Source: Deltaproteobacteria bacterium (GTDB lineage: Bacteria > Myxococcota_A > Polyangia > Polyangiales > JADJMO01). Taken from it: a stretch of 64,000 nt of DNA. A model generated the notes under the pieces. That model saw nothing but the letters and a program-made list of their open reading frames with translations, made no database searches and was not told where the DNA came from. Of the stretch, positions 1-50,039 are shown piece by piece. Position 1 is the first letter of the stretch. Every line of letters starts with the position of its first letter. A program made the translations under genes and the position numbers. The stretch covers positions 1 to 64,000 of the forward strand of contig JALHOE010000008.1 of assembly GCA_022843175.1 (NCBI GenBank), read 5' to 3'.

Positions 1-133
1 ACCTTCTCCAGCCCGTGCGATCTACACCGTCGGCGCGCGCGATGGCGACGACGAATGCGATTCGATCAGAAGCCGACGACCTCGTCAGGCTCCCGCGCTC
101 TCAAGCGATCGGTGACACGCACCTCTCAAGGAA

Positions 134-355
134 ATGTTCGCCGTCTTCCGCGAGGTCCGGAAGCTCCGGCAGGCTCCCGCCCACGCATTGAACGATGACG
201 CGTTCGATCGCTCGCTGTTCCACAAGCAACGCGAGCTGTTACTGCGCGCCTACAAGGCCGTTCGGCTGTTGCGGCTCGTACTCACGAATGCCCCCGGCGC
301 GAACGCCGTCGAAGTCGATTCGATGCTGTACCAAGGCAAGATCAACAGCTTCTAG
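134..355 (+). CDS. small hypothetical protein, possibly 3' part of a frameshifted gene
   Basis: A 73-residue reading frame with G/C-rich third codon positions typical of genes in this window. It is basic and Leu-rich in the middle and is not recognised. An in-frame stop lies at 113, so the ATG at 134 is the first good start. The frame one base over is also coding-like from an ATG at 42 to about 125, and joining the two would give one continuous protein of about 104 residues. This could therefore be the downstream piece of a frameshifted gene at 42-355. No function can be assigned. Confidence 0.4.
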   Translation: MFAVFREVRKLRQAPAHALNDDAFDRSLFHKQRELLLRAYKAVRLLRLVLTNAPGANAVEVDSMLYQGKINSF

Positions 356-381
356 TTTCGAGTCGCTCTCTCGCGGGATGC

Positions 382-1629
382 TCATACCTTGCTCGCACCG
401 CCGCGTACCGCGTCGAGCTTGCAGTCGGGCCGCGCTGCCCGGAACGCAGCGATACCCGTCTTGGTCAACGAGCATTGCTGCGCTTCGATGTGCAGGAGGC
501 TCGGCAGTCGAGCAAGGATCTTCAACGAGGCGTCAGTGACGCCGGTGCATCCATCGAGGCGAAGGCGCGCCAGTTTCGGCAGCGCTGCAAGATGCGCAAC
601 ACCATCATCCGTGATGCTGCGGTTGTACGGGATGGCGAGGTTCACCACCGATCCGAGCCCTGCCGTCTCACGCAGGTTCTCATCGGTGAGGCACTCGTTG
701 TGGAGACGGAGGGTCTCCAGCTTCGGCAACGCCCGCAGCTTGGGGATGTCGGTCCCGAGCGAGGGGGTCCCGGCGACGTCGACGACCTCCACCGTTCGAA
801 TCGATCGAAGCTTCGCGATCCCTTCGAACGTGATGCGTCCGTACCCCTGCATGAAGAACACTTCCAAGTTGTCGAAGCCGGCGAACCGCGTCAGCCCTGC
901 GTTCGTCAACCGACGATCTCCGCAGAGACGCAGCTCGTTCAGGCGGGAGCGGAGATTGTCCACGGCCGCCAGCTCGGCGAAATGCTCGTCCTGGACGACG
1001 GGAATCGGATGGAACGCGAGCCAGCGACAGCGGGACAGATCTAGTTCCCCAGGGGTGTACCGAACGATGGACCGGCGTTGCTCCTTCACCTCCCATTCGC
1101 CCTCCACCCCGATGAAGCAGTGCTGTTCGCCGAGCGACTCTGAACGGCGGCGCTCATCAGGCGGAGTCGTCTCGCTGCCGGTCGTGACCAGACGAAGGAC
1201 GCGCCGAGCAACGGCGACTTCGCCTTCGCGCCAGACCCGGGAGACGCCCTTCGCCGCATCCAACTCGCGAATCAGCCCTTCGAGCGCAGGTATCGCAACG
1301 TCCGGCCGACGGAAGTGATGACACGACCGTCCGAAGATCACGGTGAACGTCGCCTTCTGCTGCAGATCGGTGAAGCCGAGGTCGTTCAACCGAGCCCACG
1401 CATCGGTCAGCTCCTCGAACGTGTTCACCGCATAGCTCGCGAGGTTTTCGGCGGCCCGGCGCTGGAGTTCGAGGACCATGTGGGGTTCGACGGATGCCCG
1501 GTGCCTCTCGACCAGTGCCGCCCATCGGGCTCGCGCCTCCTCGTACGGCACTTGTTGCTTGTGCAGCTCAACGATCAGGCGGCCGGATTCGGCGGCAAAG
1601 TCGTTCGCAAGTGTGCGACGGCGGGCCAT
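382..1629 (-). CDS. leucine-rich repeat protein
   Basis: A 415-residue protein. Its N-terminal half (residues 1-200) is helical and Arg/Glu/Ala-rich with no recognised domain. From about residue 215 to the end there are six to seven repeats of the LxxLxxLxL type, for example 'LPKLETLRLHNECLTDENL' and 'LPKLARLRLDGCTGVTDASL', typical of RNI/AMN1-like leucine-rich repeats. The repeats probably form a curved scaffold for protein binding. No signal peptide is visible, so it is probably cytoplasmic. The start is the ATG at 1629 (MARRRT); an upstream in-frame ATG at 1761 would add an Arg/Ser-rich tail overlapping the upstream gene. It lies 85 bases after the orphan gene at 1715-2011, on the same strand. 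The partner is unknown. Confidence 0.75.
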   Translation of the reverse strand: MARRRTLANDFAAESGRLIVELHKQQVPYEEARARWAALVERHRASVEPHMVLELQRRAAENLASYAVNTFEELTDAWARLNDLGFTDLQQKATFTVIFGRSCHHFRRPDVAIPALEGLIRELDAAKGVSRVWREGEVAVARRVLRLVTTGSETTPPDERRRSESLGEQHCFIGVEGEWEVKEQRRSIVRYTPGELDLSRCRWLAFHPIPVVQDEHFAELAAVDNLRSRLNELRLCGDRRLTNAGLTRFAGFDNLEVFFMQGYGRITFEGIAKLRSIRTVEVVDVAGTPSLGTDIPKLRALPKLETLRLHNECLTDENLRETAGLGSVVNLAIPYNRSITDDGVAHLAALPKLARLRLDGCTGVTDASLKILARLPSLLHIEAQQCSLTKTGIAAFRAARPDCKLDAVRGGASKV

Positions 1630-1714
1630 CAGGGTTCGAAGCAGGGCTCGCCGCAGACGAAATCGCGGATGGGTCGCACGATCCCTTCCTGAGCGCGTAG
1701 ACCGACCAGCGGGA

Positions 1715-2011
1715 TCACACTCGGCCCCGCGCTGAATCGGCGAGGATCCGGCGGTAGACATCCTCCGGCACGCGTTCCGCGAGCATGCGGTACACGTCGA
1801 ACCACGGGTGGCGAGAACCGGGATCGATCGGCAACAGCTCGGCCTTGCCGTCGCCTACCACGAGCGAGATGCCCTCCTCTTGCTCGACGAGCTTTGCCCC
1901 TAGCTCGAACGCAAAGGCCTCGGCCTCTTTCCGGAAACTCGCTTCGCGCCGCGATCCCCATGCCCTTTCCTCGGCACGCTCCGTCGTTCGCCGTGAGGAA
2001 CGGTCACCCAT
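1715..2011 (-). CDS. hypothetical protein
   Basis: A 98-residue charged protein, not recognised. An Arg/Glu-rich N-terminus is followed by 'FELGAKLVEQEEGISLVVG' and 'PWFDVYRMLAERVPEDVYR', which look like a mixed alpha/beta fold. The start is taken at the ATG at 2011 (MGDRSS); an in-frame start at 2065 is possible. One copy of the 78-bp dispersed repeat lies just upstream (2087-2164). The gene is in the same orientation as the LRR gene and may be co-transcribed with it. Confidence 0.6.
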   Translation of the reverse strand: MGDRSSRRTTERAEERAWGSRREASFRKEAEAFAFELGAKLVEQEEGISLVVGDGKAELLPIDPGSRHPWFDVYRMLAERVPEDVYRRILADSARGRV

Positions 2012-2086
2012 GTTCTTCGAGCAGTATGGCAGACCGACGCCAAACCGCGCTCGGCGCAGCAGCACAGCTCGGCTGCCCCGACTTAC

Positions 2087-2164
2087 AGGTCGCGAGCATT
2101 GCCGAGCACTAAGCCGGAGAGCCTAGGATTTCCCGGCGAAATCGTTTCAACATCCCGTTGGGGA
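2087..2164 (-). repeat. 78-bp dispersed repeat, copy A
   Basis: This matches 4829-4906 without gaps at 62 of 78 positions. The core at 2138-2164 matches 26 of 27 bases. On the minus strand one frame reads 'RPQRDVETIS' and then 'GLVLGNARDL', the same peptide pattern as copy B, but here it is bounded by stop codons on both sides. It is probably a duplicated gene segment that has decayed. Both copies lie directly upstream of orphan minus-strand genes. Confidence 0.6.
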
Positions 2165-2220
2165 CGCTATTGTGATTGGAGCGCTTCGGGCTCCCTCACC
2201 ACGTCAACGGGTTCTGGCAT

Positions 2221-2284
2221 TTCTGTACTCGTCCAGTTCGCTCGGACTCGCTTCGCTCGTCCGGCTCCGTGGACTCGTACAGAA
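2221..2284. repeat. 64-nt nested inverted repeat
   Basis: The outer arms at 2221-2235 and 2270-2284 are complementary at 13 of 15 positions (TTCTGTAC..GTCCA against TGGAC..GTACAGAA). An inner pair CGGAC/GTCCG sits in the loop. The element lies about 105 bases downstream of the SUKH gene and could act as a terminator or processing hairpin for that operon. It has no following T-run, so a classical intrinsic terminator is not shown. The remaining 2012-2389 sequence holds copy A of the dispersed repeat and no gene I can support. Confidence 0.5.
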
Positions 2285-2389
2285 AAGCTCGAATCCCGGG
2301 AGCGGCGCGAAGATTCGGGGGAGGCAGCGGGCGCTGGCGAAGGAGCCGCGAGCGAGAGCGAGCGGCATGTCGAGGTGACGCGCGCCATG

Positions 2390-2899
2390 TCACAGCGAGG
2401 GCTGCGCGAAGCCGTGCACGATGTCCGTCGGAAATGACTTCACAACCAGATCGCCGGCAATCCAACGCGACAGGAACCTCGTCATCGTCAGACCGTAGTC
2501 GTCGACGACGTCGGTGCGCGGCGGCAGGACAGTGACCGTCCACTCCGGGGGCTCGCCGATCGTCCTCCAGCAGAGGACGTCGCCGTTGTCGGTCCCGCCC
2601 CACGGGATCAGTCCGCCGATCGCTGGATGGGGATCCCAATTCGTTCGCGGCTTGGGAGCGTCGAGTCGAAGCCAATGAAGAGCATGCCCGACGAAACCCT
2701 TGAACTGGGCGCGCTGTTGCGGCCGCAGGACGCCGAGAAAGTCGCTGATCGCGCCCGCTCCGTAGGTTCGCCAGAACTCGAAATAGTCTGTGGGTAGCTG
2801 CGTAGCGAGCTCCCGCTCGAGCAACGAGAATTCGTCATGGCTCGGGACCAACACAGGATTCGCGGGACGCGGAAGCACCGCGATCAACTCCTCGATCAC
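2390..2899 (-). CDS. SMI1/KNR4 (SUKH) family protein
   Basis: A 169-residue protein with the SUKH-superfamily pattern. An N-terminal helix carries 'EFSLLERELATQLPTDYFEF', followed by 'YGAGAISDFLGVL', a central beta region and 'IPWGGTDNGDVLCWRT', the G-rich turn common in SMI1/KNR4 proteins. Many bacterial family members are immunity proteins that neutralise polymorphic toxins. The ATG overlaps the stop of the ParE-type gene by four bases (2896-2899), so the three genes from 3424 to 2390 form one operon. Whether it protects against that toxin, another toxin, or has a housekeeping role cannot be told from sequence. Confidence 0.75.
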   Translation of the reverse strand: MIEELIAVLPRPANPVLVPSHDEFSLLERELATQLPTDYFEFWRTYGAGAISDFLGVLRPQQRAQFKGFVGHALHWLRLDAPKPRTNWDPHPAIGGLIPWGGTDNGDVLCWRTIGEPPEWTVTVLPPRTDVVDDYGLTMTRFLSRWIAGDLVVKSFPTDIVHGFAQPSL

Positions 2900-3204
2900 C
2901 GTGGTTCTCCAAGGCGAGGCCGACGTCGTCGGTGCGCGCCCCAGATCGAGTGGATCTCGATCGTGTCGTTCTCGCGATCATGGAAGTAGTACACGTGGCA
3001 TCGCGCGCGCTTCATCAACACGCGCTGGATCCGTTTGCCGCCGCTGCGCCGATACGTCGGTCCTGCTTCGGGGATCTTCGTGAGATCGCGCAGCACGTCG
3101 ACGAAGTCTTCGAGGACCACCTCTGGATGGTCGCGGTTCGCGCGCCACCACTCGTCCTCGGCCTCGAGCTGACGACGCGCTTCTTCAAGTAGAAGGACGC
3201 GCAC
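2896..3204 (-). CDS. RelE/ParE-family toxin
   Basis: A 102-residue protein of the ParE/RelE fold. The N-terminal helix 'EEARRQLEAEDEWWRANR' is typical of ParE helix 1. It is followed by 'FVDVLRDLTKIPEAGPTYR', a beta segment with basic residues (KRIQRVLMKRARCHVYYFHD) and a final strand 'DTIEIHSIWGAHR'. ParE toxins act on DNA gyrase and RelE toxins cleave mRNA; the sequence does not decide between them. It overlaps the upstream antitoxin gene by 20 bases and the downstream SUKH gene by 4. Confidence 0.8.
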   Translation of the reverse strand: MRVLLLEEARRQLEAEDEWWRANRDHPEVVLEDFVDVLRDLTKIPEAGPTYRRSGGKRIQRVLMKRARCHVYYFHDRENDTIEIHSIWGAHRRRRPRLGEPR

Positions 3205-3424
3205 GACGAGCCTTGTACTGCGCGAGGTACTCCCACGCGTCGACGCCCTCGCCCGCTTCCGACTGCGCGAGCGCGCGATCGAGCGACGCGTGGAGCGACG
3301 CGCGCTCCTCCGGCGTCATGTCGTCGTCGAACACGGCCACCTCGACCTCCGCGCCTTCGGGTAGATCGGTTGGCTCGTCGAGCACGAGACGTCCTTGTCG
3401 AACCTTCGCCTTGAGAGCGCGCAT
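3185..3424 (-). CDS. antitoxin of the ParE-type pair
   Basis: A 79-residue acidic protein starting 'MRALKAKVRQGRLVLDEPT', an AbrB/PHD-like N-terminal strand pattern. It contains 'LPEGAEVEVAVFDDDMTPEE', seen in many small antitoxins encoded before ParE toxins. Helical C-terminal residues (LHASLDRALAQSEAGEG) probably wrap the toxin. First gene of the operon, overlapping the toxin gene by 20 bases, the usual antitoxin-first order. Autoregulation is likely from family knowledge, but no clear operator was seen upstream. Confidence 0.75.
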   Translation of the reverse strand: MRALKAKVRQGRLVLDEPTDLPEGAEVEVAVFDDDMTPEERASLHASLDRALAQSEAGEGVDAWEYLAQYKARRARPST

Positions 3425-3487
3425 AACGAGCGAGATCGTAGCGCTACCAGGCTGCTTTGTCCCAGCGGCGGCGGATGGGTGGAACCG

Positions 3488-3859
3488 TTAGGCGGCGACC
3501 TCCATCGCGATCCGCGGCCAGAAGGCTGCAAGTCCCAATGTGTCGATCCCCGTTGGACGCTGTGATCTTTTCGAAACCGATGAGGTTTCGGGAAGATCGT
3601 CGTAGGTGAGGTCGAAGCCTGGCGGCCTCGTCACAGTAGCTCCGTAGAGGATGCGCCCGCGATCCTCGACCACGAACGGATCACGCCCACCCTGAACGTT
3701 GGCCGCTCCGACCATGTGGCGCGGTCTTAGGGTCCGAAGATCGCGGATCTCTTCCTCGTCATCGAGGTCGAAGCCGTACGAGGGCGGCTCCCAGTAGACG
3801 TCGAGAGCGCGCACACCGTGGCGTTCGCTCTCGATCCCCGTCGTCTGCTTCTCATGCAC
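3488..3859 (-). CDS. hypothetical protein, probably 5'-truncated
   Basis: A 123-residue reading frame from a GTG at 3859; not recognised. Motifs include 'VYWEPPSYGFDLDDEEE', 'MVGAANVQGGRDPFVVEDRG' and 'GFDLTYDDLPE'. The same frame stays coding-like upstream to about 3925 (TPEFGGRLGDALLNALSAV) without an ATG, and beyond two in-frame stops continues as 'GRVIWVMDDPSEG' near 3960-4000. The gene has therefore probably lost its 5' end through nonsense mutations and may be a pseudogene. FDLDD and DDLP motifs also occur in the neighbour at 4079-4378, but the overall similarity is too weak to claim paralogy. Confidence 0.45.
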   Translation of the reverse strand: MHEKQTTGIESERHGVRALDVYWEPPSYGFDLDDEEEIRDLRTLRPRHMVGAANVQGGRDPFVVEDRGRILYGATVTRPPGFDLTYDDLPETSSVSKRSQRPTGIDTLGLAAFWPRIAMEVAA

Positions 3860-4078
3860 CGCGCTCAGGGCGTTGAGGAGGGCATCGCCGAGGCGGCCCC
3901 CGAACTCGGGCGTCGCTTCAATTCAATCGCCGTGAAGCTAGCCCTCCGATGGATCGTCCATCACCCAGATGACTCTCCCCTTCAGGGCATCACGCTGCCA
4001 TCCAGGTCGCCCCAGACGTAGCGCCTTCGGACTACGTGTTCACCGCGATGATTTGGCAGGCGGGCGACGCCGCACCAG

Positions 4079-4378
4079 TCAAGGACGTGCCGTGAACGGC
4101 CGCCAGACCGGGTACCACAGGCCCCGGACCACGATGGGTCCCATGTGCTGCTGAACGTGCTTGGGGAGATCATCGAACCGTACGTCCCGTCGCACCAGCG
4201 GTTCTTCCGCCGGCGAGGCCAGGTAGTTCGCGTACTCGGTCTGGCGCAGGATCCACAACGCGTCGTCCAGGTCGAATGCCGTGACCCCGAGACCAAGCGG
4301 CGGACCGCCGGTCCGAATCTCGCCGGGCTTGGGCGCCGGAGGCTGCGGGGGGATGATCCAGAACGGAACGAGATCCAT
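4079..4378 (-). CDS. hypothetical protein
   Basis: A 99-residue protein, not recognised. It starts 'MDLVPFWIIPPQPPAPKPGE' and contains 'VTAFDLDDALWILRQTEY', 'RFDDLPKHVQQHMGPIVVRG' and a C-terminus rich in Trp, Arg and Pro. It looks cytoplasmic and compact. It begins 15 bases after the stop of the upstream gene (4394-4780) on the same strand, so the two are probably co-transcribed. Small paired orphan genes near SUKH and toxin genes are often immunity proteins, but nothing here proves that. Confidence 0.55.
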   Translation of the reverse strand: MDLVPFWIIPPQPPAPKPGEIRTGGPPLGLGVTAFDLDDALWILRQTEYANYLASPAEEPLVRRDVRFDDLPKHVQQHMGPIVVRGLWYPVWRPFTARP

Positions 4379-4393
4379 GTGGGTGGCCCTGCC

Positions 4394-4780
4394 TCAATCC
4401 CAACGCTTCGCGTGCAGGAGGCGCTCGAACGCCGCGATCCCTCCGTCGGCTGGTACGCGCCGAACATGGTCTCCCGGGCGAAGGTCCAAGGCGAAACCAC
4501 GCTCCTGAGCTGCCAGGACGAACCCTTCATCCGAGAGGTCCACGCGCAGCACCTCCTGGAAAGTCCGAATCTCCGGCGTCTGCGCGATGACCAAGGTGAA
4601 CATCGAGGTGTCGCCGAAGATCCTGTCGGCGTACCGTGCCGAGGCGATGTGTTCGACGAGCTGGGCCATCGGTCCCATCGACGGGAGCTGTCGATAACGG
4701 TCGATGATCGTCGACCATGGACGGGTTGGTCGCATAGGCCCGGCGTCAACGAACGGCGGCGTCACCTCTCGCTTCACCAC
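4394..4780 (-). CDS. hypothetical protein
   Basis: A 128-residue protein, not recognised. It contains 'MAQLVEHIASARYADRIFG', 'DTSMFTLVIAQTPEIRTFQE' and 'EVLRVDLSDEGFVLAAQERG', alternating strands and helices of a small globular domain. The start is uncertain: GTG at 4780 is used, ATG at 4733 (MRPTRPW) is a good alternative. Copy B of the dispersed repeat lies 49 bases upstream (4829-4906). First gene of a probable pair with 4079-4378. Confidence 0.5.
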   Translation of the reverse strand: MVKREVTPPFVDAGPMRPTRPWSTIIDRYRQLPSMGPMAQLVEHIASARYADRIFGDTSMFTLVIAQTPEIRTFQEVLRVDLSDEGFVLAAQERGFALDLRPGDHVRRVPADGGIAAFERLLHAKRWD

Positions 4781-4828
4781 CGAAATCTATCTTGCCCCGC
4801 CTGCAGCGACGACGGCACGGCGAGCTCG

Positions 4829-4906
4829 AGATCGCGGGCGTTGCCCAGCACGAGCCCGGCGACCCTCGGTTTCTCCGCGGAAATCGTTTCAACGTCCCGT
4901 TGGGGA
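4829..4906 (-). repeat. 78-bp dispersed repeat, copy B
   Basis: Partner of 2087-2164 (79% identical, ungapped). On the minus strand an open frame from about 4950 to 4790 reads 'PPTWRPPQRDVETISAEKPR' and then 'VAGLVLGNARDLELAVPSSL', with coding-like codon use but no ATG or GTG start. It is therefore probably the remnant of a duplicated gene rather than a regulatory element. Confidence 0.6.
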
Positions 4907-5116
4907 GGACGCCAAGTCGGCGGGGGTACCCCCTCCGCGTCAGGTCCTCAAACGATCGTCGAAGCGGGATCCTGACGCTTCAAGGTCGCGACTTGGCGAC
5001 GGAAGCTCCGCGATTCGTCAGTGACGCTCGCGCGAGCACCACCTGACGCTTCGCGGGCGGTGTCGCCTCCGATCATCGAAAATTACCGCGCGAAGTTGTG
5101 AGCGACGGGTTGCTGA
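4907..5116. other. intergenic stretch with inverted and direct short repeats
   Basis: No gene is supported here. The stretch contains the perfect palindrome GGGGGTACCCCC (4922-4933), an inverted pair GCGTCAGG (4937-4944) and CCTGACGC (4971-4978), and a direct repeat CCTGACGCTTC at 4971 and 5042. Its role is unknown. Confidence 0.45.
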
Positions 5117-5401
5117 GCCGGCGTCGATCCCCTGTCGTCGTCCGATGGCTGGGCACACAGGGAAGTCCCGGACGACTTCGAGGGCGCTCCTGACGACCTC
5201 CGCACCATTCTCGGCCCGCCGACGTGGCGCCGCCCGCAGGACCTGCGCAAGACGATCGCGGCGGTCCGCGGCGCACTGCGCGCGTGCGAATCGCCCGAGC
5301 GATGGGATCGTGCGAGCATCGACAGTGAGCTCGCTGCTCTCGATCGCGTCGCCGCCGAAGCCGAGTCGGTTGGAGCCTGCGTGTACCTCGATCACTCATG
5401 A
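5117..5401 (+). pseudogene. coding remnant without a start codon
   Basis: This frame is open for 94 codons and has typical coding third positions. It reads 'DDFEGAPDDLRTILGPPTW', then 'RRPQDLRKTIAAVRGALRAC' and 'SELAALDRVAAEAESVGACV', ending at the stop at 5399. It has no ATG, GTG or TTG start, and an in-frame TGA at 5114 closes it upstream. A different frame starting at GTG 5098 could once have supplied the 5' end. I read it as the 3' part of a decayed gene of unknown function. A CTG start at 5132 cannot be excluded. Confidence 0.4.
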
Positions 5402-5483
5402 AGCCGCTGGGGGCAGCGAGAGGAGTCCGAACGAGCCGTTTGCTGCAGTCGCTGTGAATCATCGGCCTCGGATAGCCTGTGGC

Positions 5484-5891
5484 ATGCCCGGCGCTTTGGT
5501 GTGGGAGAGCTACGCGACCGACAAGACACCGCCACACCCGCGTGGACGATCAAGCTTCATCGAGCCGTGGACTGCCGCCGTGCTCATGGAGGGCAACGTC
5601 GAGGTCGGGCACGTGTGGCTGACCACTCTCATGGATGCGGTGTTCGTCGATTTCACCTTCGACGACGCCGTGAACGGCGCGATGGATGATGCTGTTCTGC
5701 CCTTCGTCGTCGAGGGCTTCCTCGGCTATCGCGGCCACACGTTCGCCTTCTATCGCACCGAGGGTCACGGCATGGTGCACCTCACGAACCTGCGCTCGGG
5801 CACCGAGTGGCATTGCTACTGGGAAGAGATCGACGAGGTGGTCGCCACGATGAAGAAGTCCAAGGACTTCGTCGCGCGTGAGATCCGCTGA
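5484..5891 (+). CDS. hypothetical protein
   Basis: A 135-residue protein, not recognised. It carries 'EPWTAAVLMEGNVEVGHVWL', 'DAVFVDFTFDDAVNGAMDDA', 'FLGYRGHTFAFYRTEGHGMV' and 'EWHCYWEEIDEVVATMKKSK', suggesting an alpha/beta domain of about 110 residues. The start is the ATG at 5484; the frame is open further upstream but with atypical codons. It stands alone on the plus strand after a decayed segment. Confidence 0.6.
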   Translation: MPGALVWESYATDKTPPHPRGRSSFIEPWTAAVLMEGNVEVGHVWLTTLMDAVFVDFTFDDAVNGAMDDAVLPFVVEGFLGYRGHTFAFYRTEGHGMVHLTNLRSGTEWHCYWEEIDEVVATMKKSKDFVAREIR

Positions 5892-6211
5892 AGCGTGAAG
5901 CGGGTACCCGCTACGCGCCATGTCCGCGCGTGAACGTCGAAGGGTCGGGGTGACGATTCAACGGCGTGAGATCGCGCGGGAACTCGTTCGATGCGTCAGT
6001 GAGCCGGTGCAACGAGCGCTGCAGACGACCGGCGCGCTCGTTGCCCTGCCCGTCCTCGGGGGCCTTCATCACGACCACCGCCGAGCGGCATGACGCGCTC
6101 CATGAACCGCGGACGGCGAAAGGAGCCACCAGAGGCCGGGGCCGGCCGCGGATTCCGCTGCGATCTGCAGCCGGGCGTGCGGCCTCGGCGAGCGTGATGT
6201 AGGGTTCCCGC
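5892..6211. other. intergenic region, no gene called
   Basis: A 320-base gap. Two short overlapping frames, one on each strand (plus 5920-6093, 57 codons; minus from about 6085 to 5911), have mixed codon quality and no recognisable product. It probably contains the promoter of the lipoprotein operon starting at 6212. Confidence 0.4.
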
Positions 6212-6850
6212 ATGGCTCGATGGCTCCCGCCGTTCGTCGGCGTGCTGCTGTTTTCCTGTGGCAGCGAACCGGCCAGCACCACGTCCGTGCCCCCCGCGGA
6301 GGACAGCACGCCGGTCGCGGAGGACACCGCGCAGGTGGAGGAGACTCCGCCCGCCGAGGTGTGTGGAACGAAGGTCGGCGAGATCTTCTGCGATCACACG
6401 CTCACGGGTTACGCCCGCCCCGGCCAGACCACCGGCCTCGCGACGTCGGAGCCGTACGGCCCGCACAAGATCACCGACGTGTTGAGCAAGAGCGCGGTGA
6501 AGTACGTCTACGTCTTCGCCTCTGCCTACTGGTGAGGCGCTTGTCGAGCGAACGCCGGTGCGGCGGTCACGAAGTTTGCGGAAGGTCTCCACGAGAAGGC
6601 CGAGTTCGTTCAGTTGATCACAGAAGGAGTCGCGCCCGAGAAGCCTGCGCTCAAGTCCCACCTCGACAACTTCGTGAACACGGTGAAGATCCCCTACTCC
6701 GCGTTCCGCGATCCGGACGGGAAGCCGTTCTTCATCGTCGAGGCGATCGGCGAGAAGCACACCGGCATCGTCCTCGAGCGGGCGACCCGCAAGATCCTGT
6801 TCGTGGGTACCGAGGCCGCCGCGCTCGGTCATCTCGCCAGCCTGCCGTGA
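6212..6850 (+). CDS. thioredoxin-like lipoprotein, candidate selenoprotein (in-frame UGA at 6533)
   Basis: One frame runs from ATG 6212 to TGA 6850 (212 residues) if the internal TGA at 6533-6535 is read through. Residues 1-16 are a lipoprotein signal (lipobox LLFSC, Cys16). An acidic linker follows, then a thioredoxin-like domain. Before the TGA it reads 'SAVKYVYVFASAYW'; after it comes 'GACRANAGAAVTKFAEGLHE'. The TGA is thus residue 108 and fills the first Cys of a W-C-G-x-C redox motif, with Cys111 as partner. The downstream part (FIVEAIGEKHTGIVLERATR) keeps coding character. A perfect 5-bp hairpin CGCCG-GTG-CGGCG (6553-6565) puts a G-containing loop 23 nt after the UGA, within the usual spacing of bacterial SECIS elements. 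Otherwise it is a nonsense-mutated or misread Cys codon. It overlaps the next gene by four bases. Confidence 0.7.
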
Positions 6851-7899
6851 GCAGTGTGCGCGCGTTCGTTGCGTTCCTGCTGATCGGCTGCTCGGCGAAG
6901 GAGAGCGCGTCACCGGCGGCGCACGCGCCGGCCGATTCCGGCTACGCGGACGTCGCCCGCAACGTACCGGATGCCGATGCGGAGACGATCGTCGAGATCA
7001 CCCCGCCGGCGGTGCCGGGGACGCTCGCAGAGACGGGTCTCTACGCCGACTTCGCTGCACGCACGCTCGCAACTGGCGTGATCCCGTTCGACGTGCGCTA
7101 CCCGTTGTGGTCCGACGGCTCCGAGAAGTCACGATGGCTGTGGGTCCCGCCCGGCAAACCGATCGACACCGCCGACATGGATCACTGGGCCTACCCGATC
7201 GGGACCAAGGCCTGGAAGGAGTTCCGCCGCGACGGCGTCCTCGTGGAGACGCGCTATCTCGAGAAGAGCGGAGAGCCGCCCATCGGCTGGAAGTTCGTCG
7301 CGTACGTCTGGAGCGCGGACGGCAAGAGCGCGGTCGCGACGCCCGGCGGGCTCGCGAACGCACTCGGTACCCCGCACGATGTCCCGTCGCAGGAACAGTG
7401 CGAGCAGTGTCACAGCGGAACTCGCGACGGATTGATCGGCGTGAACGCGATCCAGTTGAGCAGCGAGAGCGGCAAGAGCGTGCTCGCGTCGCTCAGCGAG
7501 AAGGGCCTGCTCTCGAAGCCGCCGGGCAAGGAGTTCACGGTGCCCGGCGCCGGAGCCGTGCGGGATGCCCTTGGCTACCTGCATGGCAATTGCGGGTACT
7601 GTCACAGTGACGCCGGACGATGGGCCAAGGAACGGGAGATCCGATTGCGCGTCCGCGTCGGCGACACCACCCCCGAGTCGACCGCGATCTATCTCACCAC
7701 CATCAACGTCAAGATGCATCACGGCGACACGAAGGGGAATCCCTACATCGCCGTCGTTCCCGGCGATCCCGCCGCGAGCCACGTCTACGATCGGATGATC
7801 AAGCGTGACTTCTGGGCGATGCCGCCCGTCGGATCCGAGGTTGTCGATCCTACGGGGACCGCCCTGGTCAAGGCGTGGATCGCGTCACTGCCCAAGTGA
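6847..7899 (+). CDS. lipoprotein with two CxxCH haem motifs
   Basis: A 350-residue exported lipoprotein from a GTG start that overlaps the preceding stop (GTGA at 6847-6850). The signal ends at lipobox LIGC (Cys15). The conserved core has 'GVIPFDVRYPLWSDGSEKSR' and 'YPIGTKAWKEFRRDG', as in the HNE_0200/SO_0930-type conserved family. Two c-type haem motifs follow, CEQCH (about 185-189) and CGYCH (about 249-253), and the C-terminus is 'DFWAMPPVGSEVVDPTG'. Cys-His motifs imply covalent haem and electron transfer at the cell envelope. Co-transcription with a thioredoxin-fold lipoprotein suggests the partner may keep the haem-binding cysteines reduced; that is inference. Confidence 0.75.
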   Translation: MSSVRAFVAFLLIGCSAKESASPAAHAPADSGYADVARNVPDADAETIVEITPPAVPGTLAETGLYADFAARTLATGVIPFDVRYPLWSDGSEKSRWLWVPPGKPIDTADMDHWAYPIGTKAWKEFRRDGVLVETRYLEKSGEPPIGWKFVAYVWSADGKSAVATPGGLANALGTPHDVPSQEQCEQCHSGTRDGLIGVNAIQLSSESGKSVLASLSEKGLLSKPPGKEFTVPGAGAVRDALGYLHGNCGYCHSDAGRWAKEREIRLRVRVGDTTPESTAIYLTTINVKMHHGDTKGNPYIAVVPGDPAASHVYDRMIKRDFWAMPPVGSEVVDPTGTALVKAWIASLPK

Positions 7900-22342: not shown

Positions 22343-23644
22343 TCACTCCGCCTTGACCGACGTCGGCGACGACGCGCGGGTGTTGAGCACCGCTGACTCG
22401 ACGCGATCGAGCCAGTCGCCACCCTTCCGGATGAAGTTGGTGATCCCGAGCTGACGGAGCACGGCGACATCACGCGGCTGGGCCGCTGCGCTGAGCGCGA
22501 CGATCGAGGTCTGCGGTGCGATGCCGCCGCCTCGCAAGTGCATGCACAGCTCGATTCCGTTCATGGACGGCAGCCCGAGATCCAGGAGCAGGAGATCGGG
22601 TTGCGATTGCCGCACGTATGCGAGCACGGCGTTGCCATCGCGCGCGACACGAACCGTCGCGTCCGGCACAACATCGCCAATCAGGTCTTCGAGCACGTTC
22701 GCCATCGTCGGTTCGTCCTCGGCGATGAGCACCGAGATGGGTCGTCGCTCCGGCGCGTCAGAGGTGCGCGGGCGAAGGGCTGCCGTGATGGCCTCCATGC
22801 TCGGTGGACGCTCGCCAGGATCCTTGTGGAGCGTGGCGTCGATCACAGACGCAATGTAGGCGGGAACGTCCGGGCGGACTGCGCCGATCGAGGGCGGCAC
22901 CTCGTAGAGTTGCTTCTCGATGATGCCCTGCACATTCGGCGCAACGAACGGGCGCCTGCCGGCGAGCAACTCGAAGGCGACAATGCCGAACGCGTAGATA
23001 TCGACCAGGTGCGCGGCACCCCGCGCGACCGTCCGCGAGATCGCCTCGGGTGCCATGTAGTCCGCCGTGCCCGGAGCGACGTCGGCGTCGACCGCGTCGA
23101 ACTGCGGAAGGAAGATGCCGAAGTCGGTCAGAACGAGTCGATCGCGCGCGCCGAGGATGACGTTCGCCGGCTTGACGTCACGGTGCGCGATTCCGGCCTC
23201 GTGGACGGCGCGGAGCCCCTCGGCGAGGCGCAGCAACACTTCCACTGCTTCGGCGACCGGTATGGGGCCGGCGCCGCGTCGCTTCTCGATGTGATCGGCG
23301 AGCGTCGTCCCGAGGATCCGCTCCATCACGATGAAGTCGACGTCACGATGGCGGCCGACGGAGTGAACGGTCACGACCGACGGGTGACGGATGGCCGCGA
23401 GCGCCTGCGCCTCCTTCTGGACGGGAAATGCGTGGAGGTGCGGCCAGTGGGCCTTGATGGCCACGCGCCTGTTCAAGACTCGGTCATGCGCGTCGAAGAC
23501 CTGCCCCATCCCGCCGGCGCCGAGCACCCCGCGGATCTCGAAGGTACCAGCCAAGATCTCGCCGGTCTGGAAGAGGCCGTTCACCTCGCGCACAGCCGCT
23601 CGGGAGGGTCGACTACGCGGGCGGGTGGTTCCCTGTCGGACCAT
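22343..23644 (-). CDS. Ser/Thr protein kinase fused to a receiver domain
   Basis: 433 residues. The kinase domain (about 30-290) is complete: glycine loop GAGGMGQVF (42-50), Lys64 (VAIK), HRDVKPAN with catalytic Asp156, DFG (174-176), activation-loop end MAPE, and 'VDIYAFGIVAFELLAGRRPF'. The receiver (303-420) has AEDE (308-311), phospho-acceptor Asp355 (LLLLDLGLPSMNG) and Lys407 (IRKGG). There is no membrane segment, so it is soluble. The arrangement links Ser/Thr phosphorylation with His-Asp signalling and sits inside a cluster of stand-alone receivers that could be partners. ATG 23644 is the start. Confidence 0.88.
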   Translation of the reverse strand: MVRQGTTRPRSRPSRAAVREVNGLFQTGEILAGTFEIRGVLGAGGMGQVFDAHDRVLNRRVAIKAHWPHLHAFPVQKEAQALAAIRHPSVVTVHSVGRHRDVDFIVMERILGTTLADHIEKRRGAGPIPVAEAVEVLLRLAEGLRAVHEAGIAHRDVKPANVILGARDRLVLTDFGIFLPQFDAVDADVAPGTADYMAPEAISRTVARGAAHLVDIYAFGIVAFELLAGRRPFVAPNVQGIIEKQLYEVPPSIGAVRPDVPAYIASVIDATLHKDPGERPPSMEAITAALRPRTSDAPERRPISVLIAEDEPTMANVLEDLIGDVVPDATVRVARDGNAVLAYVRQSQPDLLLLDLGLPSMNGIELCMHLRGGGIAPQTSIVALSAAAQPRDVAVLRQLGITNFIRKGGDWLDRVESAVLNTRASSPTSVKAE

Positions 23645-45529: not shown

Positions 45530-45543
45530 ATTGATTAGTCAAT
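45530..45543. promoter_or_regulatory. inverted repeat, probable operator of the ArsR-rhodanese gene
   Basis: ATTGA-TTAG-TCAAT is a perfect 5-bp inverted repeat in an AT-rich pocket spanning the end of cusA and the region just before the ArsR-rhodanese start at 45522. It could let the last two genes be controlled separately from the pump genes. Confidence 0.55.
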
Positions 45544-48500
45544 CGATGGATCGGCGCCCGGTAGCGGCTTCGCTAGGACGGTGCGGCGCGACAGAGCGCG
45601 CCCGCGCCATATCACCCACGCAGCGGGGACGACGAGCAACGTGAGCAGCGTGAGGGACACAAGGCCGCCCCACATCGGCGCCGCGATCCGCTTCGCCACG
45701 TCTGCGCCGACGCCCGCGTCGAGCAGGACCGGCAGGAGGCCGAAGATGTTGGTCATCACGGTCATCAGGAGCGGACGAACGCGCTTGCTGCCGGCCTCCA
45801 CCGCGACGTCGGCCAGCGCTGCGGCGTCGCGGAACCCACTTGGTCCCCCGCGCGCCTCCCACGCCTCATCGAGGTAGACGACCATGACGCTCGCGGTCTC
45901 GGCGGCGACGCCGAGCAGCGCGATGATGCCAACCCATACTGCGATCGAGGTGTTGAACCGCGCGAACCACAGCGTCCATACGGCGCCCACCGCGGCGAAG
46001 GGGACGGCGCTCATGACGAGCAGCGTCTGCGGCACTCCGCGAAAGTTCATGTAGAGGATCAGGAACACGATCCCCAGCGTGAGCGGGATGACGTAGGCCA
46101 TGCGCGTGCGCACACGCTCGAGCAGCTCGTATTGTCCCGTCCACTTCACCACGTAACCCGGCGGGAGACTCACCTCACGCCCGACCACCCGCTTCGCGTC
46201 GGCCACGTAGCTGCCGACGTCGCGTCCCTCGATGTCGACGTAGATCCATCCGGTGAGCTGGCCCGACTCGCTCTTGATCATCGGAGGCCCCATCACCGTC
46301 TCGATCTTCGCGAGCTGGCCGAGCGGTAAGAACGCGGCGGGCCTGGCCGGCGTCGCGGAGGCGCTGGGCATCGAAGAGCTCATGCCGACGTCATCGGTCG
46401 CGGTCGCGACGCCCATCCCCCCGGCCGGCTCCATTTCGCCCGCGCCGCTCGCGGGCGTGACGGCGCCCGGGGGGCGGTTCGCGGGCGTAGTCCGCACCGG
46501 CACCAGCACCTCTCGCAGCGACGCGAGATCCTGCCGAAGGTCCCGCGGGTAGCGCACGTTGATGCGATAGCGCTCGCGGCCCTCGATCGTAGCGCTCACG
46601 TCCATGCCGCCGATGGTGCTCTCGACGACGTCGAGCACGTCCCGCACCGTCACGCCGTAGCGCGCGATCGCCTCACGGTCGGGCGTGATGTCGAGGAAGA
46701 AGCCGCCCAGCTCGCGCTCGGCGTACACCGACCGCGTGCCGGTCACCTTGCGAAGCGCGAGCTCGATCTGACCGTTCACGGCGACGATGCCCTCGAGGCT
46801 CGGACCGAACACCTTCACGCCGACCGGCGTCCGGATCCCGGTCGAGAGCATGTCGATCCGCGCCTTGATCGGCATCGTCCACGCGCCCTGCACGCCCGGC
46901 AGCGAGGCCTTCGCCTCGAGCTCCGCGACGAGCTTCTCCATCGTCATACCGGCGCGCCACTGTTCCCGCGGCCTCAGGCGCACGACGGTCTCGAACATCG
47001 AGAGCGGCGCGGGATCGAGCGCAGTGTCGGCGCGCCCGGCCTTGCCGAACACCTGCACGACCTCTGGCACGCTCTTGATCTGCGCGTCCTGGAAGCGAAG
47101 GAGTCGGCGCGCCTCCTCAATCGGGATCGAGGGCACCGTGATCGGCATGTAGAGGAGGTCGCCCTCGTAGAGCGGCGGCATGAACTCCGAACCGAGGCGC
47201 GCGAACGGCCACGCCGTTGCGGCGGTGAGAGCGACCGCCAACATCAGGACCCCCCACCGCGCGCGCAGGCACGCGCGGAGGATCGGCCGATACGCCGCCA
47301 CGCACAGACGGTTGATCGGGTTCTGGCCCTCTGGTCGGATCTTGCCGCGGAGAAACCACACCATCAGCGCCGGAACGAGGGTTACCGCGAGGAGCGACGC
47401 GAACGCCATCGAGGCCGTCTTCGCGAGCGCGAGGGGGCGAAACAATCGGCCCTCTTCGCCCTCGAGCACGAAGACGGGGAGGAACGCGATCGTCAGGACC
47501 AGCAGCGCACCGAACATCGACGGCCCGAGCTCCCTTGCGGCGGCGATCACCAGCTCCTTCCGCTCGACCGTCGACCCCTCGCGCTCCGCCTGCTCGATCT
47601 TCTTGTGCGCGTTCTCGACCAACACGACCGCCGAATCGACCATGTCGCCGAGCGCGAGGATCACCCCGGCCAGTGACATGATGTTGATCGTCATGCGCAG
47701 CGCCCAGAACGCGATGAACGATCCCGCGGTCGCCGCGACGAGGGTGATCACGCTCACGAGGGAGGAGCGGATGTGGAACAGGAACACCCCGATGACGATC
47801 AGCACGACGGCGATGATCTGCGCGACGTTGGTGCCGAGCGTCCTCACGGAGGCGGTAATGAGCTGGCTCCGGTCGTAGACGGGCACGACCTTCACGCCCG
47901 GCGGCAGCGAGCCCTGCACCTCGGCGAGCTTCGCCTTCACTCGGTTGATGACGTCGAGCGCGTTTTCGCCGTAGCGCATGACGACGATGCCGCCCACGAC
48001 CTCGCCGCGCCCATCGAGATCGACGACCCCGCGGCGGATGTTGCCGCCGACGACGACGGTCGCGACATCCTTGATGCGGATCGGCGTGCCGTCGGCCCTC
48101 GTTACGACGACCGCGAGCTCGATGTCGCGCTTGTCCCTGATGTAGCCGCGGCCACGCACCGCGTACTCGTGCTGCGCGAGCTCCACGACGCGGCCCCCCA
48201 CCTCGTCGTTCGCCCCTCGAATTGCGCCCGCGACCTGCGCGACGGTGATCCCGAACGCCTTCATGCGCACGGGATCCATTTCGACTTGGTATTCCTTCTC
48301 GAACCCCCCGACGCTGGCGACCTCGGCGACGCCCTCCACGCCCTGCAGCCAATAGCGCAGATACCAATCCTGGAACGACCGCAGCTCCTGCAGGTCGTGC
48401 TTCCCGCTCTCGTCGACGAGCGCGTACTGAAACACCCACCCGACGCTCGTCGCGTCGGGCCCGAGCTGCGGGCTCACCCCCGGCGGCAACTTGTCGCGAA

Positions 48501-48873
48501 CCTTCGAGAGATACTCGAGCACGCGCGCACGCGCCCAATACACGTCCGTCCCGTCCTCGAAGATGACGTAGACGAAGGACATGCCGAACATGGTGAAGCC
48601 GCGAACGGCCTTCACCCGCGGCGCGCCGAGGAACGTCGTGACGATCGGATACGTGACCTGATCCTCGATGACTGTGGGATTGCGCCCCATCCACTCGGTC
48701 GCGACGATCACCTGCGTGTCGGACAGGTCGGGCAGTGCGTCGAGCGGCGTGTTCCGCGCCGACCACACGCCAAACACCGTGATCGCGAGCGCCACGATCA
48801 CGACCAGGAGTCGATTGCGCCCGGAGAAGTCGATGACGCGGGCGACGAACCCCAACCGCGTCTCAGTGGCCAC
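45535..48873 (-). CDS. cusA: CusA-like heavy-metal RND pump (Cu/Ag type)
   Basis: 1112 residues from a GTG start overlapping the cusB end. HME-RND features: N-terminal 'RNRLLVVIVALAITVFGVWS', 'DALPDLSDTQVIVATEWMGR', 'VFQYALVDESGKHDL', transmembrane helix 4 as 'LGDMVDSAVVLVENAHKK' (about 410-422, matching the copper/silver HME4 type rather than the DFG type of Czc pumps), and the C-terminal 'LLGVAAETASVMVVYLDEAW'. An insertion of about 50 residues (about 793-847), rich in Met, Ala, Pro and Gly, sits in the second periplasmic loop before 'FLPLGQLAKIETVMGPPMIK'. It forms the inner-membrane part of a tripartite efflux pump. Confidence 0.9.
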   Translation of the reverse strand: MATETRLGFVARVIDFSGRNRLLVVIVALAITVFGVWSARNTPLDALPDLSDTQVIVATEWMGRNPTVIEDQVTYPIVTTFLGAPRVKAVRGFTMFGMSFVYVIFEDGTDVYWARARVLEYLSKVRDKLPPGVSPQLGPDATSVGWVFQYALVDESGKHDLQELRSFQDWYLRYWLQGVEGVAEVASVGGFEKEYQVEMDPVRMKAFGITVAQVAGAIRGANDEVGGRVVELAQHEYAVRGRGYIRDKRDIELAVVVTRADGTPIRIKDVATVVVGGNIRRGVVDLDGRGEVVGGIVVMRYGENALDVINRVKAKLAEVQGSLPPGVKVVPVYDRSQLITASVRTLGTNVAQIIAVVLIVIGVFLFHIRSSLVSVITLVAATAGSFIAFWALRMTINIMSLAGVILALGDMVDSAVVLVENAHKKIEQAEREGSTVERKELVIAAARELGPSMFGALLVLTIAFLPVFVLEGEEGRLFRPLALAKTASMAFASLLAVTLVPALMVWFLRGKIRPEGQNPINRLCVAAYRPILRACLRARWGVLMLAVALTAATAWPFARLGSEFMPPLYEGDLLYMPITVPSIPIEEARRLLRFQDAQIKSVPEVVQVFGKAGRADTALDPAPLSMFETVVRLRPREQWRAGMTMEKLVAELEAKASLPGVQGAWTMPIKARIDMLSTGIRTPVGVKVFGPSLEGIVAVNGQIELALRKVTGTRSVYAERELGGFFLDITPDREAIARYGVTVRDVLDVVESTIGGMDVSATIEGRERYRINVRYPRDLRQDLASLREVLVPVRTTPANRPPGAVTPASGAGEMEPAGGMGVATATDDVGMSSSMPSASATPARPAAFLPLGQLAKIETVMGPPMIKSESGQLTGWIYVDIEGRDVGSYVADAKRVVGREVSLPPGYVVKWTGQYELLERVRTRMAYVIPLTLGIVFLILYMNFRGVPQTLLVMSAVPFAAVGAVWTLWFARFNTSIAVWVGIIALLGVAAETASVMVVYLDEAWEARGGPSGFRDAAALADVAVEAGSKRVRPLLMTVMTNIFGLLPVLLDAGVGADVAKRIAAPMWGGLVSLTLLTLLVVPAAWVIWRGRALSRRTVLAKPLPGADPSID

Positions 48874-50039
48874 TGTGCCCGCCCGGCGTTCCGGTCGTCG
48901 CTCGGAGACGACTCTCCGAGTCAATGAGGAACTGCGCGCTCGTCGCGACGCTCTCGCCGGCGGCCAGCCCGTTCGTCACGCGATAGTGGCCAGAGACCTG
49001 CGGCCCGAGCGTGACCTCGCGCGGGACGATGTGCGCGCTGCCGTCGTCCGCCCGGTGCACGACGAACACGACGTTGCGCGTGCCGGTGTGTACGACCGCA
49101 CTCTCTGGGATCGAGAGGCCGCGACCGAGCGGGAGATCGATCTCTGCGGTCGCGAAGGCGCCGGGCTTGAGCTTCCCGTCGGCGTTCGGCACGTCGAGCC
49201 GGATCTTGAGCGTGCGCGTCGCCTGATCGATGATCGGCGCGATGAACGTGACCTTCGCGGTGAGCGGATCCGATCTGCCCTCTACGGTGAGCTTCGCCAC
49301 CTGACCGAGCGCGACGTGCGGGACGTCTGCCTCGTAGACGTCCACGAGCATCCACAGATGGGTGAGATCGGAGATGGTGAACAGCTCCGCCCCGGGCTCG
49401 ACGTAGGTGCCGAACACTGCTTGCTTGGCCACGAGCACCCCGGCGCGGGGCGAGGTGACGGCGTAGGTCCTCTGCGGCTCCAACGTCTTTTCGAGCCGAT
49501 CGATCTGCGCTCTCGGCACGTCCCACAGCAAGAGACGGCGCCGCGACGCCGCAACGAGCTTGTCCCTCATCTTGGCGTCCGCGTCCTCGGCCTCCACGTC
49601 GCCGAGGTTCAACCGTTGGCTGTTTGAGGAGCGCGAGGTGCTCGAGCTGCGCGGCGTAGACCTGTTGACTGTAGATCGCGGCGAGCACCTCGCCCTTCTT
49701 CACCGACCTCCCGACAAAGTCCGCGGGGAGCGCCTCGATGAAGCCCTTCACCTTCGTGTGCACGTGTGCCGTGCGCGTCTCGTCGAGGGCCACGACGCCG
49801 ACGGTGCGGAGCAGTTTGGTGAAGTCGCGCTGCTCGACGGTCGCGGTCGCGAGCCCGAGCGGTCCGATCCGAGCGGGATCGATCACGATCGGCGCGTAGC
49901 CGGGCACGTGTCCCTCGTGCGGCCCACCGCCGACCGCGCTCGAAGCGGGCACATGCCCGCTGTGATCCTGCTTCTGCGCGCAGTTGCCGCCGAGGCCGAC
50001 CAGGGCCAACGTGACGACAGCGAGCGCGCGCGCGTTCAT
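48863..50039 (-). pseudogene. cusB: CusB-like periplasmic adaptor, reading frame broken by one base
   Basis: Two frames together give one complete adaptor of about 391 residues. The 5' frame (50039 to about 49625) starts with a lipoprotein-like signal (MNARALAVVTLALVGLGGNC), a His-rich stretch 'KQDHSGHVP..GGGPHEGHVP', then 'HVHTKVKGFIEALPADFVGR' and 'QQVYAAQLEHLALL'. The 3' frame continues 'QRLNLGDVEAEDADAKMRDK', 'TYAVTSPRAGVLVAKQAVFG' and 'TRTLKIRLDVPNADGKLKPG', ending with His-Ser-Gly-His. The switch is at the AAA run 49623-49625; removing one A restores the frame. It is a real mutation, a sequencing error or a slippery site. Overlaps cusC and cusA by a few bases. Confidence 0.8.

Follow-up and report, generated by a model that had tools for sequence, protein, structure and literature searches.

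A ParE/RelE-like toxin–antitoxin pair followed by a SUKH-superfamily gene in a deltaproteobacterial genome

Three overlapping genes on a contig of a Deltaproteobacteria bacterium are best explained as a standard toxin–antitoxin (TA) pair and an orphan immunity-type gene of the SUKH superfamily. These were likely joined by a rearrangement in one lineage and are probably co-transcribed and functionally separate. The genes lie in a stretch of 64,000 nucleotides, referred to below as the window. Overall, we view the trio as an ordinary TA pair with an orphan immunity-type gene, of modest interest as a possible case of immunity-gene capture.

All three genes are on the minus strand. The first encodes an antitoxin of 79 amino acids from an ATG start (3185-3424), the second a ParE/RelE-like toxin of 102 amino acids from a GTG start (2896-3204) and the third a SUKH-superfamily (SMI1/KNR4-like) protein of 169 amino acids, also from a GTG start (2390-2899). 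Based on the ORF coordinates, the antitoxin and toxin genes overlap by 20 bases and the toxin stop overlaps the SUKH start by 4 bases. Across the three genes, the GC-content of codon positions 1, 2 and 3 is 0.65-0.79, 0.44-0.47 and 0.73-0.78, respectively, which is a coding pattern. The three overlapping genes that an earlier, sequence-only reading of this DNA had proposed are confirmed. Two relatives (L053 and L055; see below) retain the 20-base overlap, which lends credence to the GTG at 3204 as the toxin start. No sigma-70-like promoter and no intrinsic terminator were found at 1900-4000. A perfect 10-base palindrome, GTAGCGCTAC (3438-3447), is located 14-23 bases ahead of the start codon of the antitoxin gene and possibly represents an operator, although it could also have arisen by chance. 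Sequence homology to the TA remnant of a genome of the same genus stops at 3447, the end of this palindrome.

The toxin belongs to a sequence family (alignment A3, 17 sequences) whose members match the ParE_toxin profile PF05016. The window protein alone scores below the cut-off of this profile (14.2 bits; cut-off 23), and we therefore name it ParE/RelE-like rather than file it as ParE. At E <= 0.01, a threshold distinct from the curated cut-off, PF05016 is matched by 13 of the 17 aligned members, with 5.5e-10 as the best value; the window protein is not among these 13. No chain of a solved structure matched the A3 profile at E <= 0.1, and the AlphaFold model of the toxin, built from 4 sequences, is poor (mean pLDDT 58.1; pTM 0.45). 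For the antitoxin, no Pfam family scored above its cut-off, and none matched the window protein at E <= 0.01. Its match to the NCBIfam RelN antitoxin is weak (18.4 bits; cut-off 70), and its N-terminus is, by its look, presumably AbrB-like.

The pair itself is widespread. Toxin matches were found in 26 of 282 genomes of the phylum with the single protein as query and in 58 of 377 with the 17-sequence alignment (own genome included in both counts), and the relatives in the phylum-wide clade around A3 are 28-56% identical to the window toxin. A small antitoxin gene directly upstream is conserved with the toxin across these relatives: eight antitoxin homologues (35-72% identical) sit upstream of toxin homologues, and our neighbor listing of 28 other loci, from which the partial match L027 was left out, has 16 in which the toxin start shares 4 bases with the ORF ahead of it; no upstream ORF was listed for three of the 28 (L009, L026 and L030). 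The nearest toxin relatives outside the genus come from deltaproteobacterial MAGs (L053, L054 and L055; 53-56% identical), where antitoxin and toxin overlap by 20, 23 and 20 bases, respectively. At both L053 and L055 the antitoxin ends at 3020 and the toxin starts at 3001, and at L054 the toxin is cut by a late stop. A SUKH profile search of these three loci found the pairs without a SUKH gene. The conserved overlap indicates that the two-gene module is old and that the 20-base overlap was inherited. The gene order agrees with that of RelE/ParE type II pairs (PF05016), in which the antitoxin lies directly upstream and often overlaps the toxin; the window differs from them in its toxin score below the PF05016 cut-off and in the SUKH gene behind the toxin. 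Judged on sequence, the best reading of the genes at 3185-3424 and 2896-3204 is a standard type II TA pair of a family common in the phylum. A further toxin relative, in two overlapping pieces, was observed on contig C21 of G000 (22430-22719; L162); it is apparently a second copy from this family, disrupted by a frameshift.

Past the last conserved leucine of the family, the window toxin has a short tail of four residues, GEPR, and the stop after this tail is the one that overlaps the SUKH start. At L053 and L055, a TAG stop directly follows the conserved leucine codon, and none of the 16 other aligned toxins has a similar tail, although L007 has one extra residue. The tail could thus be a trace of the join with the SUKH gene. 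We consider this weak evidence, since two toxins outside the alignment (L022 and L160) have tails of ~6 residues with no SUKH gene behind them and a toxin that had simply lost its stop codon would present the same picture.

The nearest genome, G284 of the same genus, carries a decayed copy of the TA pair on contig C61 (also G286, through L056, JACPFM010000010.1). The remnant is identical to the window at 147 of 159 bases over the 3' part of the antitoxin gene and the first ~32 toxin codons (94% over 32 residues for the toxin protein) and at 84 of 98 bases over the antitoxin start. About 80 bases are missing between the matching parts, and the rest of the toxin gene is gone. No SUKH relative was found in G284 with the window protein, and none in the 6.4 kb around the remnant. 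These data place the TA pair elsewhere, and without a SUKH gene, in the nearest genome, although the deletion could also have removed a SUKH gene. A homologue of the window gene 6850-7896 (62%) is located on contig C83 of G284 and offered a possible comparison of sites. This comparison failed: none of the other 11 tested proteins of window 1-6850 matched in the 13 kb before that homologue.

We searched for the trio in other genomes with profiles of both proteins. The SUKH profile matched none of the toxin loci L003-L031 and L053-L062 (flanks up to 1.5-3 kb, shorter downstream where a contig ends, e.g., 140 bases at L014), and the toxin profile matched none of the 30 SUKH loci L063-L092 (with at most 1.5 kb of flank). 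Both searches included the loci that had not been used to build the toxin profile (L020, L024-L027 and L031) or the SUKH profile (L074, which has an internal stop, L083 and L089-L092). A profile search of 59 further loci (L105-L163) yielded 29 with a toxin match and 30 with a SUKH match, and the two met only in L110, which is the window itself, and in L160, which had been included deliberately after a comparison of coordinates. In these counts, L003 and L055 are one place, L056, L058, L059 and L163 are another, and G284 and G286 are taken as one genome as they have the same coordinates. Finally, we compared 107 toxin places with 165 distinct listed SUKH places, taken from 150 and 72 listed matches; the searches behind the toxin places and the 150 SUKH matches drew on 377 genomes and the search behind the 72 on 282, and the true number of SUKH places is at least 165. 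Among the matches listed, toxin and SUKH genes were found on the same contig within 30 kb in three cases: the window, G357 (1.19 kb apart) and G102 (20 kb apart). The G357 pair (L160) was rejected as a second trio: its toxin and SUKH genes are convergent with other frames between them and do not form an operon.

The window is therefore the one operonic case in 107 toxin places among the SUKH matches listed, and a third gene conserved with the TA pair was not found. The sequence-only reading had offered a three-part system as one possibility and had named uniqueness to this strain, together with a SUKH protein that does not influence the toxin, as the outcome that would speak against it. As to the first half of this outcome, the trio indeed appeared in no other genome searched, among the matches listed, and the proposal lacks comparative support. 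Absence from the searched sets does not mean absence everywhere, and more such pairs could exist.

The SUKH protein scores just above the cut-off of PF14568 (27.1 bits; cut-off 27) and below that of PF09346 (23.8 bits; cut-off 25.4). Its two nearest paralogues in the same genome are located on contig C125 and are 32-33% identical to it over 157 and 141 columns (tblastn). They lie in tandem directly behind an Rhs gene and ahead of a VgrG-like gene (L034/L051). The Rhs gene matches PF03527 RHS (43 bits) and ends in a tip matching Endonuclea_NS_2, a DNA/RNA non-specific endonuclease (PF13930; 59.4 bits); the gene after the SUKH pair matches PF05954 (121 bits), which we read as VgrG. From these matches, the locus looks like a T6SS-type effector with its immunity genes. 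This Rhs-nuclease context is the one expected for SUKH immunity proteins from the description in PMC3482391, an excerpt of which has a table row that names Imm-SUKH with Tox-NucA, HNH and other nuclease toxins. The window gene differs from the C125 genes in what precedes it, a TA toxin in place of a nuclease-tipped Rhs gene. Contig C36 carries the third SUKH place of the genome (L161, about 3519-3890), which matches PF09346 with 51.4 bits and, by eye, adjoins no recognized toxin gene.

More distant SUKH relatives, all less than 60% identical, were found in 23 plasmid records, and we examined 11 annotated homologues of the 20 listed from these 23. Five of the 11 follow genes annotated or judged to be of polymorphic-toxin type: a VENN pre-toxin, a gene with DUF4781, which we take to be a toxin-type domain (one ORF between), a T7SS-secreted protein, a DNA/RNA non-specific endonuclease and an RHS gene. 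Two of these five share the arrangement of the window, a 4-base overlap between toxin stop and SUKH start. The other six adjoin no annotated toxin, several of their neighbors being 'hypothetical', and no annotated TA gene adjoins any of the 11. A scan of genome contigs for close SUKH relatives gave 24 candidate stretches, none of which was confirmed, so that the sets searched yielded no close relative of the window protein. The toxin had no match in plasmids at E 1e-3, nor the SUKH protein in phages at E 1e-5. Single-protein queries, whose reach is limited to close relatives, led to no confirmed relative of either protein in viral contigs.

No such toxin neighbor was observed near the window gene: at 1-6 kb, where six ORFs on its flanks were scanned, no polymorphic or secreted toxin gene, no Rhs gene and no T6SS gene was found, the leftward scan being bounded by the contig end at window base 1. 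Orphan SUKH genes have precedents. According to an excerpt of PMC12247911, orphan SUKH proteins of gut Bacteroidales protect against a T6SS effector, and the rAID genes described there likewise have no cognate toxin adjoining. As presented in that excerpt, the rAID SUKH genes form immunity arrays and have two SUKH domains, whereas in the window one SUKH gene stands behind a TA pair, and an array of known immunity families was not recognized. The three small ORFs near the trio match no Pfam or NCBIfam family, and a leucine-rich-repeat gene lies on its other side.

Together, these results suggest how the trio may have formed and how it may work. A rearrangement in the lineage of the window would have set the SUKH gene directly behind the toxin gene. 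As in such families in general, the antitoxin would bind the ParE/RelE-type toxin and repress the shared promoter, and loss of the antitoxin would free the toxin. The SUKH gene is probably co-transcribed and translationally coupled with the TA pair, as its start overlaps the toxin stop. Given the Rhs-nuclease context of its relatives, the target of the SUKH protein is likely a nuclease toxin delivered by a neighbor or competitor through an Rhs/T6SS-type system, and not the adjoining toxin; the protein would most likely bind the nuclease tip of the delivered toxin. Against functional separation, selection for coupling could account for the 4-base overlap and for an SUKH frame that is still intact.

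Around the trio, the GC-content of bases 1-6200 is 0.647, relative to 0.685 for the whole window, and the third-position GC is 0.70-0.79 in eight of the nine ORFs picked up to 5891, while most ORFs picked elsewhere reach 0.8-0.9. A direct repeat of 78 bases brackets the trio (left copy 2087-2164; right copy 4829-4906; 79% identical), and six minus-strand ORFs lie between the copies: the trio and the small ORFs 3488-3859, 4079-4378 and 4394-4780. The first of these is located 63 bases upstream of the antitoxin gene in the same direction and has no family match; the other two match no Pfam or NCBIfam family, and ORF 4079-4378 is rare in the phylum (2 of 188 genomes, own included). The differences between the repeat copies fall mostly, by eye, on third positions of one minus-strand frame, so that the repeat may be the remnant of a duplicated gene; the 43-residue peptide of the right copy has no Pfam match. 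Its 22-base core occurs at only these two places in the genome, allowing up to 2 mismatches, and related genomes contain only short partial matches of 22-38 bases. The motif CCCGTTGGGGA is found at the same end of both copies (2154-2164 and 4896-4906; 2 occurrences in the window versus 0.02 expected) and again in the same-genus genome (L056, 1174-1184), 8 bases beyond the point at which the TA remnant breaks off. This motif may mark a recombination end. In four tests of the repeat ends against that break point, 14, 61, 3 and 5 of 500 shuffles reached the observed score, and on this sequence comparison the alignment is suggestive only.

Beyond the SUKH gene, on the strand of the trio and within the low-GC stretch, we observed a leucine-rich-repeat gene (382-1761) and an overlapping small ORF (1715-2065). 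In an excerpt of PMC13340143, a lower-GC stretch behind a Stenotrophomonas Rhs effector contains Knr4/Smi1, Imm26 and LRR genes. Window 1-6200 resembles the stretch described there in its lower GC-content and in having a SUKH-type gene and an LRR gene, and differs in that no Rhs or T6SS gene was found among the six flanking ORFs and that a TA pair precedes the SUKH gene. By analogy, immunity-type genes may likewise have been brought together in the low-GC stretch of the window. Elsewhere, the window also contains two AcrB/AcrD/AcrF-type efflux pump genes (45535-48924 and 61162-63939).

Several alternatives assign a role to the position of the SUKH gene. An unlikely possibility is that the gene was recruited as a third component into a RelE/ParE-type operon, either because its product neutralizes a BECR-fold toxin or because the addictive pair keeps and expresses an orphan immunity gene against delivered toxins. 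The sequence-only reading had likewise suggested that a TA operon captured an immunity gene. In a weak form, with an immunity-type gene adjoining the TA pair and probably read with it, this suggestion fits the evidence and is a possible reading of the locus. The adaptive form, in which the TA pair would preserve the SUKH gene by providing a promoter and by rendering the locus difficult to lose, is unlikely. It would agree with the position of the gene inside the likely TA transcript and with the protection by orphan SUKH genes in gut Bacteroidales (the excerpt of PMC12247911), but the window is a single case and the same-genus genome retains only a broken pair, which indicates that the pair does not always resist loss.

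We consider it improbable that the SUKH protein acts as a second neutralizer or regulator of the ParE/RelE-type toxin in a three-part TA system. Three genes on one strand, closely packed with overlaps of 20 and 4 bases, would fit such a system, but the nearest relatives are two-gene modules, and the trio is the sole operonic case among the matches listed. RelE and EndoU toxins have a common BECR fold, and we take PDB 2c1w to be EndoU. A table row citing PDB 2c1w in an excerpt of PMC3482391 lists Imm-SUKH, i.e., for another BECR-fold nuclease; given the common fold, binding of a RelE-fold toxin by a SUKH protein is conceivable, but the same excerpt pairs Tox-RelE with Imm54. SUKH is also tabled for EndoU-like and colicin E3-like RNases in an excerpt of PMC13129497, in which SUKH and RelE/ParE appear only as separate table entries. 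A three-gene module of the RelE/ParE superfamily with a chaperone does exist: in HigBAC (an excerpt of PMC11980606), a third gene stands alongside the pair, as in the window. That third gene encodes a SecB-like chaperone, whereas the window SUKH gene is not conserved with the pair among the matches listed, and SUKH is not mentioned in the excerpt. Among the papers listed in our searches of the open-license literature, we found no account of a RelE/ParE operon that includes a SUKH gene.

It is very improbable that the third gene encodes a general SMI1/KNR4-like protein and not an immunity protein: the PF14568 match just over its cut-off, the PF09346 score below its own, the six of 11 plasmid homologues with no annotated toxin gene adjoining and the C36 gene would agree with this, but the two nearest paralogues lie behind an Rhs-nuclease gene and the five remaining plasmid homologues follow polymorphic-toxin-type genes.

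If the arrangement is mere juxtaposition, as in the explanation that we favor of a TA pair and a functionally separate orphan immunity-type gene, the window would extend the tally of orphan SUKH genes and that of TA pairs by one each. A functional link would connect delivered toxins and their immunity proteins with intracellular TA pairs in one operon, and the trio would hint at a way in which orphan immunity genes are retained and expressed.
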